From Alphaproteobacteria bacterium (GTDB taxonomy: Bacteria > Pseudomonadota > Alphaproteobacteria > Geminicoccales > Geminicoccaceae): a stretch of 37,875 bases of DNA. A program made the position numbers and the translations under genes. The notes under the pieces were generated by a model. That model saw nothing but the letters and a program-made list of their open reading frames with translations. It was not told the origin of the DNA and did not search any database. The stretch is taken from the NCBI GenBank assembly GCA_030431615.1, contig JAUIID010000025.1, positions 1-37,875 on the forward strand, given 5' to 3'. Below, in pieces: positions 30,492-37,476 of the stretch (position 1 is the first letter of the stretch; every line of letters starts with the position of its first letter).

Positions 30492-31337
30492 TTAAATGCC
30501 GAGGTGCCGGCTGTGCCAGGCGATATGGTCGGCCATGAAGCTGGCCATGAAGTAGTAGGAATGGTCGTACTCGGCGTGCCGGCGCAGCTCGAGCGGGATG
30601 CCGGCAGCGGCGCAGGCGGCTTCCAGGAGCTCCGGCTTGAGCTGGCTCTCGAGGAAATTGTCGCCGAGCCCCTGGTCGACCAGGATCTCCGCCGCCTTCG
30701 CACCATCCTCGATCAGCGCCGTCGCGTCATAAGGGCGCCAGGCAGCACGGTCGGGGCCGAGATATCCTGAGAGCGCCTTCTCGCCCCAGGGGCAGCGCAT
30801 GGGCGAGACGATGGGGGCGAAGGCCGAGACGGAGCGGTAGAGCGCCGGGTTCTTCAGGGCCAGCGTCAGGGCACCGTGACCGCCCATCGAGTGGCCGGAA
30901 ATCCCCTGCCGGGCGGTGTCGACCGGCAGCTCGGCGGCGACCAGCTCCTGCAGCTCGCGGGTGACGTAGCTCGCCAAGCGGTAGTTCTTCGCCCAGGGCT
31001 CGACCGTCGCATCGAGGTAGAAGCCGGCGCCCGAGCCGAAGTCGTAGGCATCGTGCTCGCCCGGCAGGTCGAGCCCGCGGGGGCTCGTGTCGGGGCAGAC
31101 GACGATCAGCCCGGCTGCCGCGGCAGGCCCCTGGAAGCCGGCCTTGGTGGTGGCGTTCTCCCAGGTGCAGGTGAGGCCCGAGAGCCACCAGAGCACGGGG
31201 CAGCGCCGCCCCTCCTCGGCCGCCGGCGGCAGGTAGACGGAGAACTGCATGTCCGTGCCGGTGGTGGCGGAGGCATGGCGATAGACCGCCTGGACGCCGC
31301 CATGGCAGCGATGGGCGGCGATCGGGGCCAGCGCCAT
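30492..31337 (-). CDS. fghA: S-formylglutathione hydrolase
   Basis: 281 residues from the ATG at 31337, which shares one base with the dehydrogenase stop (TGATG). Serine esterase (esterase D) features are MQFSVYLPP, WWLSGLTCTWENATTKAGFQ, PDTSPRGLDLPGE, the nucleophile S150 in GISGHSMGGHGAL, and a C-terminal His in HAEYDHSYYFMASF. It splits S-formylglutathione to formate and glutathione, the second step of glutathione-dependent formaldehyde oxidation, in the cytosol. It is co-translated with the dehydrogenase that makes its substrate. Length and motifs are normal. Confidence 0.95.
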   Translation of the reverse strand: MALAPIAAHRCHGGVQAVYRHASATTGTDMQFSVYLPPAAEEGRRCPVLWWLSGLTCTWENATTKAGFQGPAAAAGLIVVCPDTSPRGLDLPGEHDAYDFGSGAGFYLDATVEPWAKNYRLASYVTRELQELVAAELPVDTARQGISGHSMGGHGALTLALKNPALYRSVSAFAPIVSPMRCPWGEKALSGYLGPDRAAWRPYDATALIEDGAKAAEILVDQGLGDNFLESQLKPELLEAACAAAGIPLELRRHAEYDHSYYFMASFMADHIAWHSRHLGI

Positions 31338-32505: not shown

Positions 32506-33183
32506 TCAGGCCAGCTTTGCGGGGCCATTTCCGGCGAGGAGGGCATCGCGGCGATCGAGCATGCGGCAGTGCAGGTCGTGCAGCAGATAGGCGAGGCGGC
32601 TGCGGGTCCAGGGCTGGCCGGAGAGGGCGTCGTAGGCACCCGGCAGCTCCCGGCCCTCGACCACGCCGGCGACGAGGCCGTGCCGCCGGCAGAGGGCGAC
32701 GCAGCGCACGGCGTGGTCGCGCTGGGCCACGACCGCCACGGGGCCAACCGCCTCCGCCCCGCCGGCCCGGGCGATGATCGCCTCGATCACCCCGCCCGTG
32801 TTCAGATAGAGCGGCTCCGCCTGGGCATCGCGGACCGGGTGGATCGCGGTCACCACGCCGGCCGCGAGCTGCCGGACGAGCGGCTCCGCCACCTCCCACT
32901 GCGCCCAAATCGGTGCCCCCGTCGCCCGGTGCAGGTCGAGCGCCAGCGCGGCCAGCGACTCGTTGACGGGACCGGGCTCGCGATTGCCGTTGGCGAGCAT
33001 TCGGTTGCCGAAGGTGAAGCCGATGATCGTGCGCACCGCGTCGAACTCGATGGCCGGCGCCCGCCAGCCGAGGGCGTCCTCCAGGAGGATCGCCGCCAGC
33101 TCGCCGGCCACCGCCGGATCGCCGAGCTCGGCCCCGAGCCGGGCGGCCAGCGCTTCTTCGAGGGTCGCCGCCGCTTCGCTCAT
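32506..33183 (-). CDS. Conserved hypothetical protein (possible YdcF/DUF218-like)
   Basis: 225 residues from an ATG at 33183 with GAGG six bases upstream; a GTG at 33195 is possible. It has no signal or membrane segment. The C-terminal half, with GPVAVVAQRDHAVRCVALCR and SGQPWTRSRLAYLLHDL, recalls DUF218/YdcF proteins, but the match is from memory of the pattern and is weak. The N-terminal half (FDAVRTIIGFTFGNRMLANG) is not recognised. It lies 56 bases upstream of the formaldehyde dehydrogenase gene on the same strand and could be cotranscribed. On its other side lies the repeat-rich region before the cupin gene. Confidence 0.6.
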   Translation of the reverse strand: MSEAAATLEEALAARLGAELGDPAVAGELAAILLEDALGWRAPAIEFDAVRTIIGFTFGNRMLANGNREPGPVNESLAALALDLHRATGAPIWAQWEVAEPLVRQLAAGVVTAIHPVRDAQAEPLYLNTGGVIEAIIARAGGAEAVGPVAVVAQRDHAVRCVALCRRHGLVAGVVEGRELPGAYDALSGQPWTRSRLAYLLHDLHCRMLDRRDALLAGNGPAKLA

Positions 33184-33320
33184 CGCATGCCTCACTAGGA
33201 TTTATAACCTATTTCGGTCCGCCCTGCAAGCCCGCTTCGGGTTCCTTCGGCAGAATCGCCGTCTGCGTCTGCCGCCGCTGCCCAAAAAGCCCGACACTCA
33301 AGGGAAAAATCTTCCATTTC

Positions 33321-33416
33321 AATCGCTTGCTGGCCCTCGGGTTCGTTCGCTGGCCCTTGGGTTCGTTCGTCGATTCGCCGGGTTCGATCGTCGATTCCGT
33401 GGGTTCGTTCGTCGCC
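33321..33416. repeat. Five degenerate tandem units of 20-21 bp
   Basis: Units begin at 33321, 33341, 33361, 33382 and 33403. The core is GTTCGTTCG followed by CTGGCCCTTGG or TCGATTC-C-GG. The first two units share TGGCCCT and the last three share TCG after the core. The period is near two turns of B-DNA. The block runs straight into the palindrome array that follows, within a 368-base gap between divergent genes. Confidence 0.7.
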
Positions 33417-33419
33417 AAC

Positions 33420-33533
33420 TGTCGCGTATTCTGCGACATTGGAGCTTAGCTGTCGCATATAACGCGACAGTTCGGGGCCAACTGTCGCGTTATACGCGAC
33501 AACCCGAGCGATTCTGTCGCGGAATATGCGACA
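33420..33533. repeat. Array of four 19-bp palindromes TGTCGC-N7-GCGACA, spaced 31-32 bp
   Basis: Copies lie at 33420-33438, 33451-33469, 33483-33501 and 33515-33533. Each has perfect arms TGTCGC and GCGACA around a 7-base AT-rich centre (GTATTCT, ATATAAC, GTTATAC, GGAATAT). Centre-to-centre distances are 31, 32 and 32 bases, about three helical turns, so all copies face the same side of DNA. The last copy ends 18 bases before the cupin ATG. This looks like a multi-site operator for a dimeric regulator that binds cooperatively. Confidence 0.8.
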
Positions 33534-33551: not shown

Positions 33552-33986
33552 ATGCAGCGCCGCATGCTCTGGGCCATGGGCCTCGCCGGGTCGCTCGGCC
33601 TCGTTGTCGGCATCGCCGTGGCGCGCACGACCTACCCGCCGCTCGAGCTGCTGCTGCAGGGCAACCGGACCGTGCTCGACCAGGAGATCGCCTATCCGGA
33701 AGGCGTGCCGGAGGTGACCGGGGCCATCGTCACCATGGAACCGGGCCAGACGACCGGCTGGCACCGGCACGGTGCCCCGCTCTTCGCCTGGGTCATGGAG
33801 GGCGAGATCACCGTCGACTACGGCGACCACGGCACCCGCCGCTATGCCGCCGGCGACGCCCTGCTCGAGGCGGTGGAGACCGCCCATGACGGCACCAATA
33901 CCGGCGACGTGCCGACCCGGATTCTGGTCGTCTTCATGGGTGCGGAGGGCGTGGCCAACACGGTCCCGCTGGACGGGCCGGACTGA
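33552..33986 (+). CDS. Membrane-anchored cupin-domain protein
   Basis: 144 residues from the ATG at 33552 with GGGAGAG upstream. An N-terminal hydrophobic segment (MLWAMGLAGSLGLVVGIAVA) is a signal or anchor. The cupin barrel has TTGWHRHGAPLFAWVMEGE (metal-binding His-x-His) and AAGDALLEAVETAHDGTNTG (second motif His and Asn). The first-motif Glu is not in its usual place. Single-domain exported cupins often bind a metal and a small ligand; the function is unknown. It is the only gene in front of which the four-palindrome array lies, so it is probably tightly controlled. It is the last gene before the AT-rich island. Confidence 0.8.
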   Translation: MQRRMLWAMGLAGSLGLVVGIAVARTTYPPLELLLQGNRTVLDQEIAYPEGVPEVTGAIVTMEPGQTTGWHRHGAPLFAWVMEGEITVDYGDHGTRRYAAGDALLEAVETAHDGTNTGDVPTRILVVFMGAEGVANTVPLDGPD

Positions 33987-34146: not shown

Positions 34147-34902
34147 TTAGCGGCAATTAACATCCTCCTGATCATCCCAAATTCGCCTTGCAATTGGCGA
34201 ACGGACTGCTTGATAGATTAAGTAGACGGTATCCTCCGCTTTTGAAAATATTTGCATGCTCTCGTCTTCGGTGCGAAAGCCAATCTCCATAAGGGTCTTC
34301 AACGACTCGGCCAGTATTAGCGCTGACGACTCGAACTGAATATCATTGTCTGGACTGAAACCGCATTTATGGGCAACGAAGAGCCAATCGTGAACGATAT
34401 ATGCCGGGGCGTACGTCCAAGGAGTGAAATTTCCTATCGAATGCAGTAATTTTGGTATGCTTCCGCCATCGGTATCCATTACTCCTGGAACGATCTGCCG
34501 CCCAGACGACGTAACATAAGTAAAATTGTCCGGCTGAAACAAGAATGTTGGACGAGAATTTTTTCGATCATACCCATTCCATGTAATAGACGGCGCCCCA
34601 ACAAATAAACCAGTACCAAGCTGTTTATAAAAAATGTCACCGAGAAAAAGTGTCGCGATAGATCGTTCGCCCGGCCCGATTTCCGATAACTTCCGCACAA
34701 CATCTTTTTGAATCTGTTCTTGAATTTGATCGGCCAATTCCGGCGCAAACATTGTCGACGCATGAGATACCAACTCCATCGGCCTCATCAAGGTCCGGAC
34801 CGAGGACGTTGCCCCCTCTTCATTGAGTTGCGCATGGCCTGAAACACTCCACAAAAATAGAGTAGAAATTGCCAGAAAACGGGAAACTAAGAAAGTATTC
34901 AT
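34147..34902 (-). CDS. Exported DUF1353-domain protein
   Basis: 251 residues with a signal peptide (FLVSRFLAISTLFLWSVSGHA). The DUF1353 core is DTDGGSIPKLLHSIGNFTPWTYAPAYIVHDWLFVAHKCG, in which DGGSIP and HDWL are the family landmarks. DUF1353 is found in phage and bacterial proteins of unknown function; the conserved Asp and His could form an active site. The mature N-terminal third is not recognised. Codon use is AT-rich, unlike the genes to the left. It is the third gene of a minus-strand set after two secreted proteases, with a 92-base gap, and is probably part of the same unit. Confidence 0.75.
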   Translation of the reverse strand: MNTFLVSRFLAISTLFLWSVSGHAQLNEEGATSSVRTLMRPMELVSHASTMFAPELADQIQEQIQKDVVRKLSEIGPGERSIATLFLGDIFYKQLGTGLFVGAPSITWNGYDRKNSRPTFLFQPDNFTYVTSSGRQIVPGVMDTDGGSIPKLLHSIGNFTPWTYAPAYIVHDWLFVAHKCGFSPDNDIQFESSALILAESLKTLMEIGFRTEDESMQIFSKAEDTVYLIYQAVRSPIARRIWDDQEDVNCR

Positions 34903-34994
34903 TCCTCACTCCTAGCACTTCACCAGATGTTGAACTGAATCCCGCCGCAAAAAGAATACGGTTGATGGTCACCAGCTCAATTAGCACATGTCGC

Positions 34995-35987
34995 TCAATT
35001 CGAACTCAGGAACCCAACGACGGTTCGCTCAGCCCAAGTCCTATACACCGATGCCGCTGTGTAGATTCCGAAGAGATCGTTTCGTCCACACCCAATACCC
35101 CAACTTACGATCCCAATGAGCACCGGACTGTCGCTTCGTGGTGTTGCGATTGGACCCTCATTGCGGTACACCATCGGGCCACCACTGTCGCCTTGGCAAC
35201 TATCGAAGTTCCCATCCACAAAGCCTGCGCACAACATGCCATCACCAATGGTCTCACCGTGTTTTGCAAATATTCCTTTGCAGAAGGCATGATCAACCAA
35301 CGGAAGCTGCACCTCTTTTAGTTGAATTGAGTCGCTTCCTGTCTCAGTGAGTCCCCATCCTTGGACATAGACTGATAGGTACGGCTCGTTCAACCAAATT
35401 GTATCGCGCGGCTCTGGAAACCGAATGCTCGCTCGCCGCACTTTCTCAAGAGTTAAGTTGGTCGAAGGAGAAAGCTGCAACAGCGCAATATCATGCTCAA
35501 GTGTTTCTGGATTGAAATCAGGATGCGGTAATATTGCCGAGACTAATTGGACCTCCCCCCTTCCATCTTCGTTTGTTCGATTACGTGCGCCGCCGAGCAC
35601 TGATAACCGGGCAACATCTAACAAGGTCCCATCATCGTTTACGACACAGTGCGCGGCTGTAACCAACCATCGCGGCGCCGGGTCGTCGCTGATCCAATCA
35701 AGAACCTTTTCACCTGCAGGATCAAGCATTGGCGACACAAATGAACCACCACAAAAATGCAGCACGCTCTCCAAATCTCCAGCCATAATCTCGTATCTAA
35801 GTGATGCAGCCCAAGGCCCTTGACCCTGTAGCACTGGATCGCCGTTGATGATGCGCTCGGAAGCGCGAGCGACACCGACGCGCGTCTGTGCATGTGACAC
35901 GCTTGATGTTGCAATGGCGAGCACTACCAAACTCAAGATCGGTGCATTGGCAATAATTTCCCTCATTCGTCGAATATTTGTCTTCAT
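34995..35987 (-). CDS. Secreted trypsin-like serine protease (S1A family)
   Basis: 330 residues from the ATG at 35987 (AGGAAG upstream) with a signal peptide ending near SHAQ. The activation-site-like RIINGDPVLQGQGPWAASL is followed by the triad H113 (VTAAHCVVND), D166 (EHDIALLQLS) and S268 (SCQGDSGGPM). D262 in the S1 pocket position predicts cleavage after Lys or Arg. SWGIGCG shapes the binding pocket. Cysteines for several disulfides point to periplasmic or extracellular action. A new N-terminus would form after Arg45, as in trypsinogen, so the protein may be a zymogen. Low GC content and the neighbouring protease suggest joint acquisition. The substrate is unknown. Confidence 0.92.
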   Translation of the reverse strand: MKTNIRRMREIIANAPILSLVVLAIATSSVSHAQTRVGVARASERIINGDPVLQGQGPWAASLRYEIMAGDLESVLHFCGGSFVSPMLDPAGEKVLDWISDDPAPRWLVTAAHCVVNDDGTLLDVARLSVLGGARNRTNEDGRGEVQLVSAILPHPDFNPETLEHDIALLQLSPSTNLTLEKVRRASIRFPEPRDTIWLNEPYLSVYVQGWGLTETGSDSIQLKEVQLPLVDHAFCKGIFAKHGETIGDGMLCAGFVDGNFDSCQGDSGGPMVYRNEGPIATPRSDSPVLIGIVSWGIGCGRNDLFGIYTAASVYRTWAERTVVGFLSSN

Positions 35988-36021
35988 TGCTGATATCTTC
36001 CTGTAAGATTATTGCCTTCAC

Positions 36022-37476
36022 TCATTTATCAAGTCGCGCATCTAACCAGGCCCTGATTTTTGGCGCTTCTAGCGAGACATAAATCCCTCCGCCACCACAC
36101 TGAGCTGGACTTCCCTCTGGCACGGAATTGAGCGCCCGCGAGGTAATTCCTGCCAGTTGCATTTGCGCACCAGTTCCATTTTGAATAAAGAGTGGGCCAC
36201 CACTGTCACCGAAGCAAGTATCAGCTGGCGGTCGTGCCGCCGTACTTTCCAATTCTTGAATGCATATTTCGGAATTACGGCATATCCGAAGCAAGAAGTC
36301 GAGCTCCACAAAATTCTTGTCGCCAGGACGGAACCGATTGTCACTTTCACCGAAACCGACCGCATAGAGTTTTTGATACAGAGTGTTGGTGCGTGCAATC
36401 GGGTCGACAGGCAGGATTGCTTTCGCAAGGGTTTCAGGAAGCTCCTGATTGAGAGTCAGTAGTGCTATATCCGCCATACCCTCATCGAACGCTCGCCCGT
36501 CCGTCCACGCCGTACAGAAATTCGAATCGAAGAACTCCGCCTTGGATTGCAATGGCAGTGAGGTTCGCAATCCGCGACCTCTAACTCGCGACGTGAAAAG
36601 TGTCTCCCCGAAGAAAGCATAAAGCGGGAAATCGCCGCACAAGCAGTGCGCTGCAGTAAGAACCTGATCGTCAGAAACAAGAACACCACTACACTTTGGT
36701 TTGCGGTCGCTGTACTGAAGCGCAACAGTAGTTGGGAACGATAGCCGGTTAAGTGTCGAGGCGAACGACCCACCTTGACCTCCCCCGCTCTCCTTTTTCC
36801 CACCCTCGCCTGAAGCAGCATCAACCCCAGCGACACGAGTGTTGCCTGTTGCTGCAATTCCTGGCGATCTGATCGGACCCGCCCCGGTACCTGCGCAGAT
36901 TGCCGCTGCACAGTGGCCGGTATAGTCGCCTGGATCCAGTGGCGGCTCGGCCGGCGGCTGAACGTCGGGAAGGGACGGCGTTCCAGGAGTTAGAGGGACC
37001 TGCGGCATCGGGCCGAGATCCGGAAACATCACGTTCGACGGCAAAACATCTGTCACACCCGGCAAGGTCAGATTGTGGTCAAAGATGTAAGGTCGATCAG
37101 GCGTGAGGTCATTGTCATATCCGCGAAGTACGATCAGTTGTCCACCAACATCTAGCTCTGCCTCGGAGGTACCTACTGCGTCCGACCCGATAACATCGCC
37201 AAGAATAGAACTGCCGCCGTCTCCGGTAAAACCGCCATCGCCACCACCGTCGCCGCCGAAGCTACCACCACCGCCGCCGAAGCCACCACCACCGCCGCCG
37301 AAGCCACCACCACCGCCACCGCCACCGCCAAATTGTGCCAACTGATAGTGGTCACTGGTAGGCTGCAGCGAGGCATCGTGAGCAGTAGCTGGTAGGCTGA
37401 CAGCGCAGACGACTACAGTGGCCAGCGCCGTCCGCCAGCCATCGCGTACTGCGAGCTTAAGAGTAACAGAATTCAT
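36022..37476 (-). CDS. Secreted trypsin-like serine protease with glycine-rich N-terminal region
   Basis: 484 residues from the ATG at 37476, with GGGAG in the leader. After a signal peptide (to about residue 32), residues 50-89 are mostly glycine with regular Phe and Ser, then comes a Pro/Asp-rich linker with DVQPPAEPPLDPG, and the S1 protease domain from about residue 240. The triad is H277 (LTAAHCLCG), D336 (MADIALLTL) and S425 (CFGDSGGP); D419 predicts Lys/Arg preference. The classic activation site is absent, so control must differ from the 34995 protease. The glycine-rich part may be an adhesive or surface-binding spacer. It lies 34 bases upstream of the second protease gene, likely as the first gene of an operon. 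Confidence 0.88.
   Translation of the reverse strand: MNSVTLKLAVRDGWRTALATVVVCAVSLPATAHDASLQPTSDHYQLAQFGGGGGGGGGFGGGGGGFGGGGGSFGGDGGGDGGFTGDGGSSILGDVIGSDAVGTSEAELDVGGQLIVLRGYDNDLTPDRPYIFDHNLTLPGVTDVLPSNVMFPDLGPMPQVPLTPGTPSLPDVQPPAEPPLDPGDYTGHCAAAICAGTGAGPIRSPGIAATGNTRVAGVDAASGEGGKKESGGGQGGSFASTLNRLSFPTTVALQYSDRKPKCSGVLVSDDQVLTAAHCLCGDFPLYAFFGETLFTSRVRGRGLRTSLPLQSKAEFFDSNFCTAWTDGRAFDEGMADIALLTLNQELPETLAKAILPVDPIARTNTLYQKLYAVGFGESDNRFRPGDKNFVELDFLLRICRNSEICIQELESTAARPPADTCFGDSGGPLFIQNGTGAQMQLAGITSRALNSVPEGSPAQCGGGGIYVSLEAPKIRAWLDARLDK
37230..37335. repeat. Imperfect 18-bp-type tandem repeats coding for the Gly-rich stretch
   Basis: The pattern CCGCCGAAGCCACCACCA is repeated with changes through this part of the protease gene. 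On the coding strand it gives GGGGGGFGG units. Such repeats can change in number by slippage, so the length of the Gly-rich region may vary between strains. Confidence 0.65.

Follow-up and report, generated by a model that had tools for sequence, protein, structure and literature searches.

Sequence Comparison Places a Phased Palindrome Array within a Dispersed, Putatively Promoter-Bearing Cassette of One Geminicoccaceae Genus

Overview

The window, defined here as the whole 37,875-nucleotide stretch of DNA analysed, contains four phased palindromes (dyads) of the form TGTCGC-N7-GCGACA. Judged by comparison of copies, this dyad array is one module of a dispersed cassette of about 450 bp. At least 34 copies of the cassette are present in the source genome (G000), which is of soda-lake type. 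Thirty-three arrays were examined (the window copy and 32 fetched copies), and the 34th lies on contig 218. The total number of sites suggests that a few further copies exist. With a probability of roughly 55%, the dyads are bound by a dimeric protein within a mobile promoter-enhancer cassette, in which a distal complex would loop to the promoter.

The Window Copy and Its Genes

The features of the window copy and its neighboring genes are listed in Table 1. The dyads had been located in a first-pass annotation, and their positions and start-to-start distances (31, 32, and 32 bp) were confirmed as exact matches. The perfect arms and the AT-rich, variable centers it described also held on re-check, as did the lack of a regulator gene next to the array. 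It had missed the remaining parts of the cassette, namely the usual number of dyads per array (mostly five), the repeats at 33239-33411, the leftward promoter at 33201-33229, and the recurrence across the genome.

Table 1. Features of the cassette copy in the window and of the adjacent genes (positions are those of the window).
Feature	Position	Strand	Basis or remark
fghA, S-formylglutathione hydrolase-like	30492..31337	-	Third gene; named by sequence recognition
frmA, S-(hydroxymethyl)glutathione dehydrogenase-like, 370 aa	31337..32449	-	Second gene; named by sequence recognition
ORF225, 225 aa, no family assigned	32506..33183	-	First downstream gene; start codon ~18 bp past the -10
Promoter TTGCAG-N17-TATAAA, sigma-70-type	33201..33229	-	Left end of the element; strand-specific enrichment versus shuffles
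Single proximal box GGGTTCCTTCG	33239..33249	+	Box lattice; just upstream of the leftward -35
Linker, proximal to distal boxes	33250..33338	.	Box start-to-start 100 bp; sequence not conserved
Distal box D GGGTTCGTTCG	33339..33349	+	Lattice common to other copies
Distal box D GGGTTCGTTCG	33359..33369	+	Box lattice
Distal box D GGGTTCGATCG	33380..33390	+	Box lattice
Distal box D GGGTTCGTTCG	33401..33411	+	Box lattice; 19 bp before P1
Dyad P1 TGTCGC-GTATTCT-GCGACA	33420..33438	.	Exact match; slot 1 of the 31-32-32-32 array
Dyad P2 TGTCGC-ATATAAC-GCGACA	33451..33469	.	Exact match
Dyad P3 TGTCGC-GTTATAC-GCGACA	33483..33501	.	Exact match
Dyad P4 TGTCGC-GGAATAT-GCGACA	33515..33533	.	Exact match
Cupin gene, neighbor beyond the array	33552..33986	+	Pfam Cupin_2, E 3.4e-13

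The left side of the window copy is complete. The right side lacks the fifth dyad that is usual elsewhere and also lacks motif 3 (described below), and the cupin gene begins at that place. Because this copy is without the usual right end, its adjacency to the cupin gene looks accidental. The position of the predicted promoter suggests that it may transcribe ORF225, frmA, and fghA, and its spacing suits this operon, which we take to serve formaldehyde detoxification. The frmA DNA is 88-90% identical in the sister genomes. On the minus strand, three consecutive genes at 34147-37476 of the window encode a DUF1353 protein and two trypsin-like proteases.

The array had been proposed to be an operator of the cupin gene. 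In favor of this, it stops 18 bp before the cupin ATG at 33552. Against it, the same array occurs at 33 other places beside unrelated genes, is oriented to the gene on the opposite side, and sits upstream of a promoter that faces away from the cupin gene; the missing right end of the window copy speaks against it as well. A local cupin operator is thus mostly refuted, and we regard it as highly improbable.

Recurrence of the Dyad

When three mismatches to TGTCGC-N7-GCGACA were allowed, 36 sites were found in the window against 38 expected. This is the level of chance, and significance therefore rests on exact sites. The 5.33-Mb source genome contains 169 exact sites, compared with 0 for a reversed-pattern control, and 124 adjacent dyad pairs at array spacing, again compared with 0. 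Nearly all of the 169 dyads belong to five-dyad arrays with start-to-start distances of 31-32-32-32 bp. Among 39 relatives, exact sites are scattered and number at most two per genome. A motif strewn without phasing, which would have spoken against the first-pass description, is not what the source genome contains; the phase is preserved, and the arrays that were fetched are intergenic.

A CRISPR array was also considered and rejected. There are usually five repeats, the 12-13-bp spacers recur between arrays, and no cas family was present among the neighbors scanned.

Architecture of the Cassette

The cassette consists (left to right) of an outward sigma-70-type promoter, one GGGTTCGTTCG box by the -35, a linker of usually about 100 bp, the distal (D) boxes, and the dyads. 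This order is consistent in the copies read and forms a modular composite with a tandem array, as in BOX-type repeats. The cassette is approximately 440-475 bp in size with reproducible ends, and is short, non-coding, and dispersed in the manner of a MITE.

The leftward promoter has the consensus TTGACN-N17-TATWAT and lies beside the proximal box. A score of at least 9 is reached in this direction by 17 of 33 copies in the source genome and 15 of 18 sister copies, compared with one copy in each set for the opposite direction and 1.4-1.8% of shuffles. IHF-like bending sites were noted by eye in the linker. Of the 29 copies scored, 16 have a proximal-to-distal box distance (start-to-start) of 100 or 101 bp.

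The distal GGGTTCGTTCG boxes are in tandem, 20-21 bp apart, to the left of the dyads. There are usually four or five, and some are inverted or missing in a few copies. In 30 of 33 copies, P1 follows the last D box at a distance of 19 bp. With the same orientation applied to all arrays, the exact 31-32-32-32 spacing is found in 23 of 33.

Motif 3 is a 17-bp dyad, CATMAS-N5-STKATG, present in about half of the copies. One occurrence lies between two dyads and the other approximately 66-67 bp past the array. With presence classed by eye and variant forms included, 14 copies have both, two have only the inner, none has only the outer, and 17 have neither (Fisher P 1.5e-7). The two occurrences are separated by 164 bp in all but one of 11 pairs, the exception being 165 bp.

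Five copies (L119, L120, L121, L128, and L130) carry a GGGGAG...CTCCCC hairpin followed by CCCCTCCGG a few bases past motif 3. Their arrangement is as if the cassette sat between a stop codon and its terminator.

Constraint on Sites and Spacing

The dyad arms are close to invariant. In 160 dyads, admitted to the table at 10 or more of 12 arm matches, 11 of 1920 arm positions are off consensus. Between all pairs of five-dyad copies, the arms differ at 0.9% of positions, the cores at 47%, and the spacers at 56%. Six of the more similar copy pairs each have 0 arm differences per 60 positions. The 66 bp preceding the outer motif 3 have a median identity of 0.36, and their length is constant. Near-random linkers combined with fixed dyad arms and distances argue that geometry is under selection. 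That distances have stayed fixed while the sequence drifted is the most compelling sign of a function probably dependent on helical geometry.

Positions 7 and 13 of the dyad are purine/pyrimidine, with G/C in 55 dyads, A/C in 50, G/T in 47, and A/T in 8. A/C and G/T are as common as G/C and A/T is depleted, which speaks against selected base pairing. Perfect inverted arms might otherwise point to structured RNA or cruciform hairpins of a REP-like or terminator-like kind. This table rejects that explanation together with the absence of any Rfam family at threshold and the non-matching halves of the sister dyads (below), and we give it almost no weight. The part of the first-pass reading that stands is a phased, probably cooperative multi-dimer array, as indicated by the same table and by a spacing of about three helical turns that is nearly invariant in 33 arrays; its assignment to the cupin gene does not stand.

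The 7-bp cores behave differently from the rest of the array. In three copy pairs of G000 (L033/L065, L029/L031, and L025/L033), the cores have changed in blocks and to a greater extent than the spacers. In related copies some cores are unchanged and others are almost wholly replaced. This pattern resembles the swapping of entire cores more than it does point mutation. Inversion of cores by a recombinase was rejected, with exact inverted cores at 4.3% versus 3.9% by chance.

Genomic Setting and Mobility

Two copies (L023 and L029) align from GCTCTAGGATTTATA at the -10 through the whole of the outer motif 3. Homology then fades, and the neighboring genes are unrelated. Copies L033 and L062 are similar duplicates that lie beside different genes. 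A cassette follows an S49-peptidase gene in G000 and G002, and the corresponding site in G001 is empty. No cassette was found upstream of frmA in the DNA available there for both sister genomes. Mobility of the cassette is shown by its recent duplication to unrelated loci and by the unoccupied site in a sister species.

The gene to the left of the cassette is convergent in 25 of 32 copies of the source genome (P 0.002; 1.4e-4 with the sisters added), which usually leaves the promoter without a gene to drive in the sense direction. The stop codon of the convergent gene is often within 25 bp of the -10. No functional theme was found among the gene families of the neighbors scanned.

These observations also bear on a second reading, in which the cassette would be a non-autonomous mobile element. 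The dyads, boxes, and motif 3 pair would then serve its own movement (through a transposase or recombinase and helpers), and the promoter would be incidental or a part of this. Discrete ends, recent duplicates at unrelated loci, and the patchy occupancy of the S49-peptidase and frm sites are all in its favor. The point where duplicate homology fades, right past the outer motif 3, may be added, as this motif (CATAA-N7-TKATG) recalls a Xer core; the inner part of a Xer/dif site is CATAA-N6-TTATG. The excess after convergent genes resembles that of tolerated mobile repeats and fits tolerated insertion after genes, which has been described for other repeats (PMC3049150). However, old copies with near-random linkers keep their arms and distances, which self-movement alone would not preserve. 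Inspection by eye of ten copies that have both ends revealed two different ends and no terminal inverted repeat or flanking target duplication, and no transposase or recombinase gene was present among the neighbors scanned. We consider this reading, the main rival of the promoter-enhancer cassette, rather improbable.

Distribution and Sister Species

Two draft genomes of the same genus, Geminicoccaceae bacterium S10.Bin091 (G001) and Rhodospirillales bacterium CSSed165cm_57 (G002), contain the same cassette layout in about nine copies each. Neither has an exact TGTCGC-N7-GCGACA site. The dyads of these two genomes have the same length of 19 bp; their half-sites are mostly TGGCGCA, TGAGTCG, and TGTGTCG, and the halves do not match. 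The last box lies 29 bp from P1 in all sister copies scored, and one motif 3 pair is 163 bp apart. The MAG SRR4030105_bin.67 has this layout as well, with two copies found and halves that are mostly YGTTGC. In two cases (L023/L120 and L072/L131), a cassette follows the same gene in G000 and in a sister genome and carries different dyads. Linker similarity was discarded as proof of orthology for these pairs; the linkers are saturated and uninformative.

No cassette was found in 384 other genomes sampled from the class. In the genome_contigs collection, the exact pattern occurs only in three MAGs of this group and in an unrelated Bacteroidetes minisatellite. The latter (L137) is a tandem GGGTTCGTTCGAAATCGGAAT repeat, and its overlap with the D box looks coincidental. 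In the collections searched, the cassette thus appears restricted to one Geminicoccaceae genus.

Viral contigs contain no adjacent dyad pairs or D-box pairs, and no plasmid match of L120 or phage match of L023 was found; a phage or plasmid origin was rejected on these results. The extended G000 pattern of motif 3 has six viral matches, all without D boxes, and its sister form has none in viral contigs. Four of the six (L212, L214, L215, and L216) have a common hairpin, GCGACATAAC-N5-GTTATGTCGC, which is followed in some by a T-run and is terminator-like.

A chromosome-organizing or partition-like site, at which a ParB-like or nucleoid protein would be loaded at dispersed places, would agree with many phased dyads on one helix face, with their dispersal through the genome, and with neighbors that lack a functional theme. 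Most copies conserve a promoter at one particular end, which argues against it, as do the patchy positions and the lower copy numbers of the draft relatives (about 9, about 9, and 2, compared with at least 34). It is a weaker reading than the promoter cassette, and an unlikely one.

Comparison with Known Repeats

We know of no promoter-bearing bacterial repeat that has three site classes in rigid helical register with the intervening sequence scrambled. Dispersed repeats that bear promoters are already known (Correia, PMC10969869; BOX, PMC3049150), and what is new here is a multi-site register held rigid and a dyad code that differs by species.

The BOX elements of Streptococcus pneumoniae, with their boxA, boxB, and boxC sequences and foldable transcript, are composite, dispersed intergenic repeats that are in excess between convergent genes and are reported to affect the expression of their neighbors (PMC3049150). 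In layout, the cassette is like BOX in its ordered modules, its tandem array mid-element, and its excess at convergent genes. It is unlike BOX in that its modules are protein-type sites in fixed register, its spacing is near-invariant, its outward promoter is conserved, and RNA pairing is not selected in its dyads; no Rfam family reached threshold.

Correia and other promoter-bearing MITEs are short, non-coding, dispersed elements with sigma-70-like promoters, and Correia also carries an IHF site (PMC10969869). The cassette shares the size, dispersal, non-coding nature, and promoter type. Unlike these elements, it shows no terminal inverted repeats or target duplications by eye, has phased arrays and two or three site classes, and varies in dyad sequence between sister species.

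Three further families share some features with the cassette. REP/BIME elements are imperfect palindromes kept as hairpins and regularly spaced between genes (PMC2817692); the cassette dyads differ in being 19 bp, not selected as hairpins, and inside a larger promoter cassette. The stoperators of Cluster A mycobacteriophages are dispersed repressor sites with a consensus that varies between relatives (PMC6550527; PMC9283540). Those sites are 13 bp long, asymmetric, and placed singly in phage genomes, whereas the dyads of the cassette are symmetric and form chromosomal arrays accompanied by a promoter. The TAACTGA direct-repeat sets of Beggiatoaceae form a large, lineage-specific intergenic repeat family with a proposed post-transcriptional role (PMC4679880). 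As described, these are short direct repeats with neither dyads nor a promoter cassette, unlike the present element.

Proposed Mechanism and Significance

The promoter-enhancer cassette reading builds on features of the sequences themselves: module order, near-fixed spacing, constraint on arms and promoter, drifting linkers, duplication, restriction to one genus in the collections searched, and dyads that differ between species. Dimers would fill the dyads cooperatively on one helix face, and a second protein would occupy the GGGTTCGTTCG boxes. The spacing suggests that this distal complex would loop over the linker to the single box by the -35. The looped complex would then switch the outward sigma-70 promoters as a group. 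The window copy would switch ORF225, frmA, and fghA. In copies with a convergent neighbor, transcription from the promoter would run antisense into the end of the neighboring gene or cause collisions there.

A further proposal is offered tentatively, as less likely than not. One binding protein would have changed its specificity between the sister species, with the dyads following in each copy sampled. This would be a bacterial case of concerted co-evolution, driven by conflict or by network rewiring, between a fast-changing DNA-binding protein and its arrays throughout the genome, in a mobile cassette of at least 34 copies that is held in helical register by selection.

The window copy also serves as a warning: what looks like a neat operator of a single gene can be one copy of an element spread throughout the genome. 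With many copies and several species codes, the cassette is a natural replicate experiment for enhancer-type geometry, and differences in binding code between sister species become comparable across a whole set of arrays.
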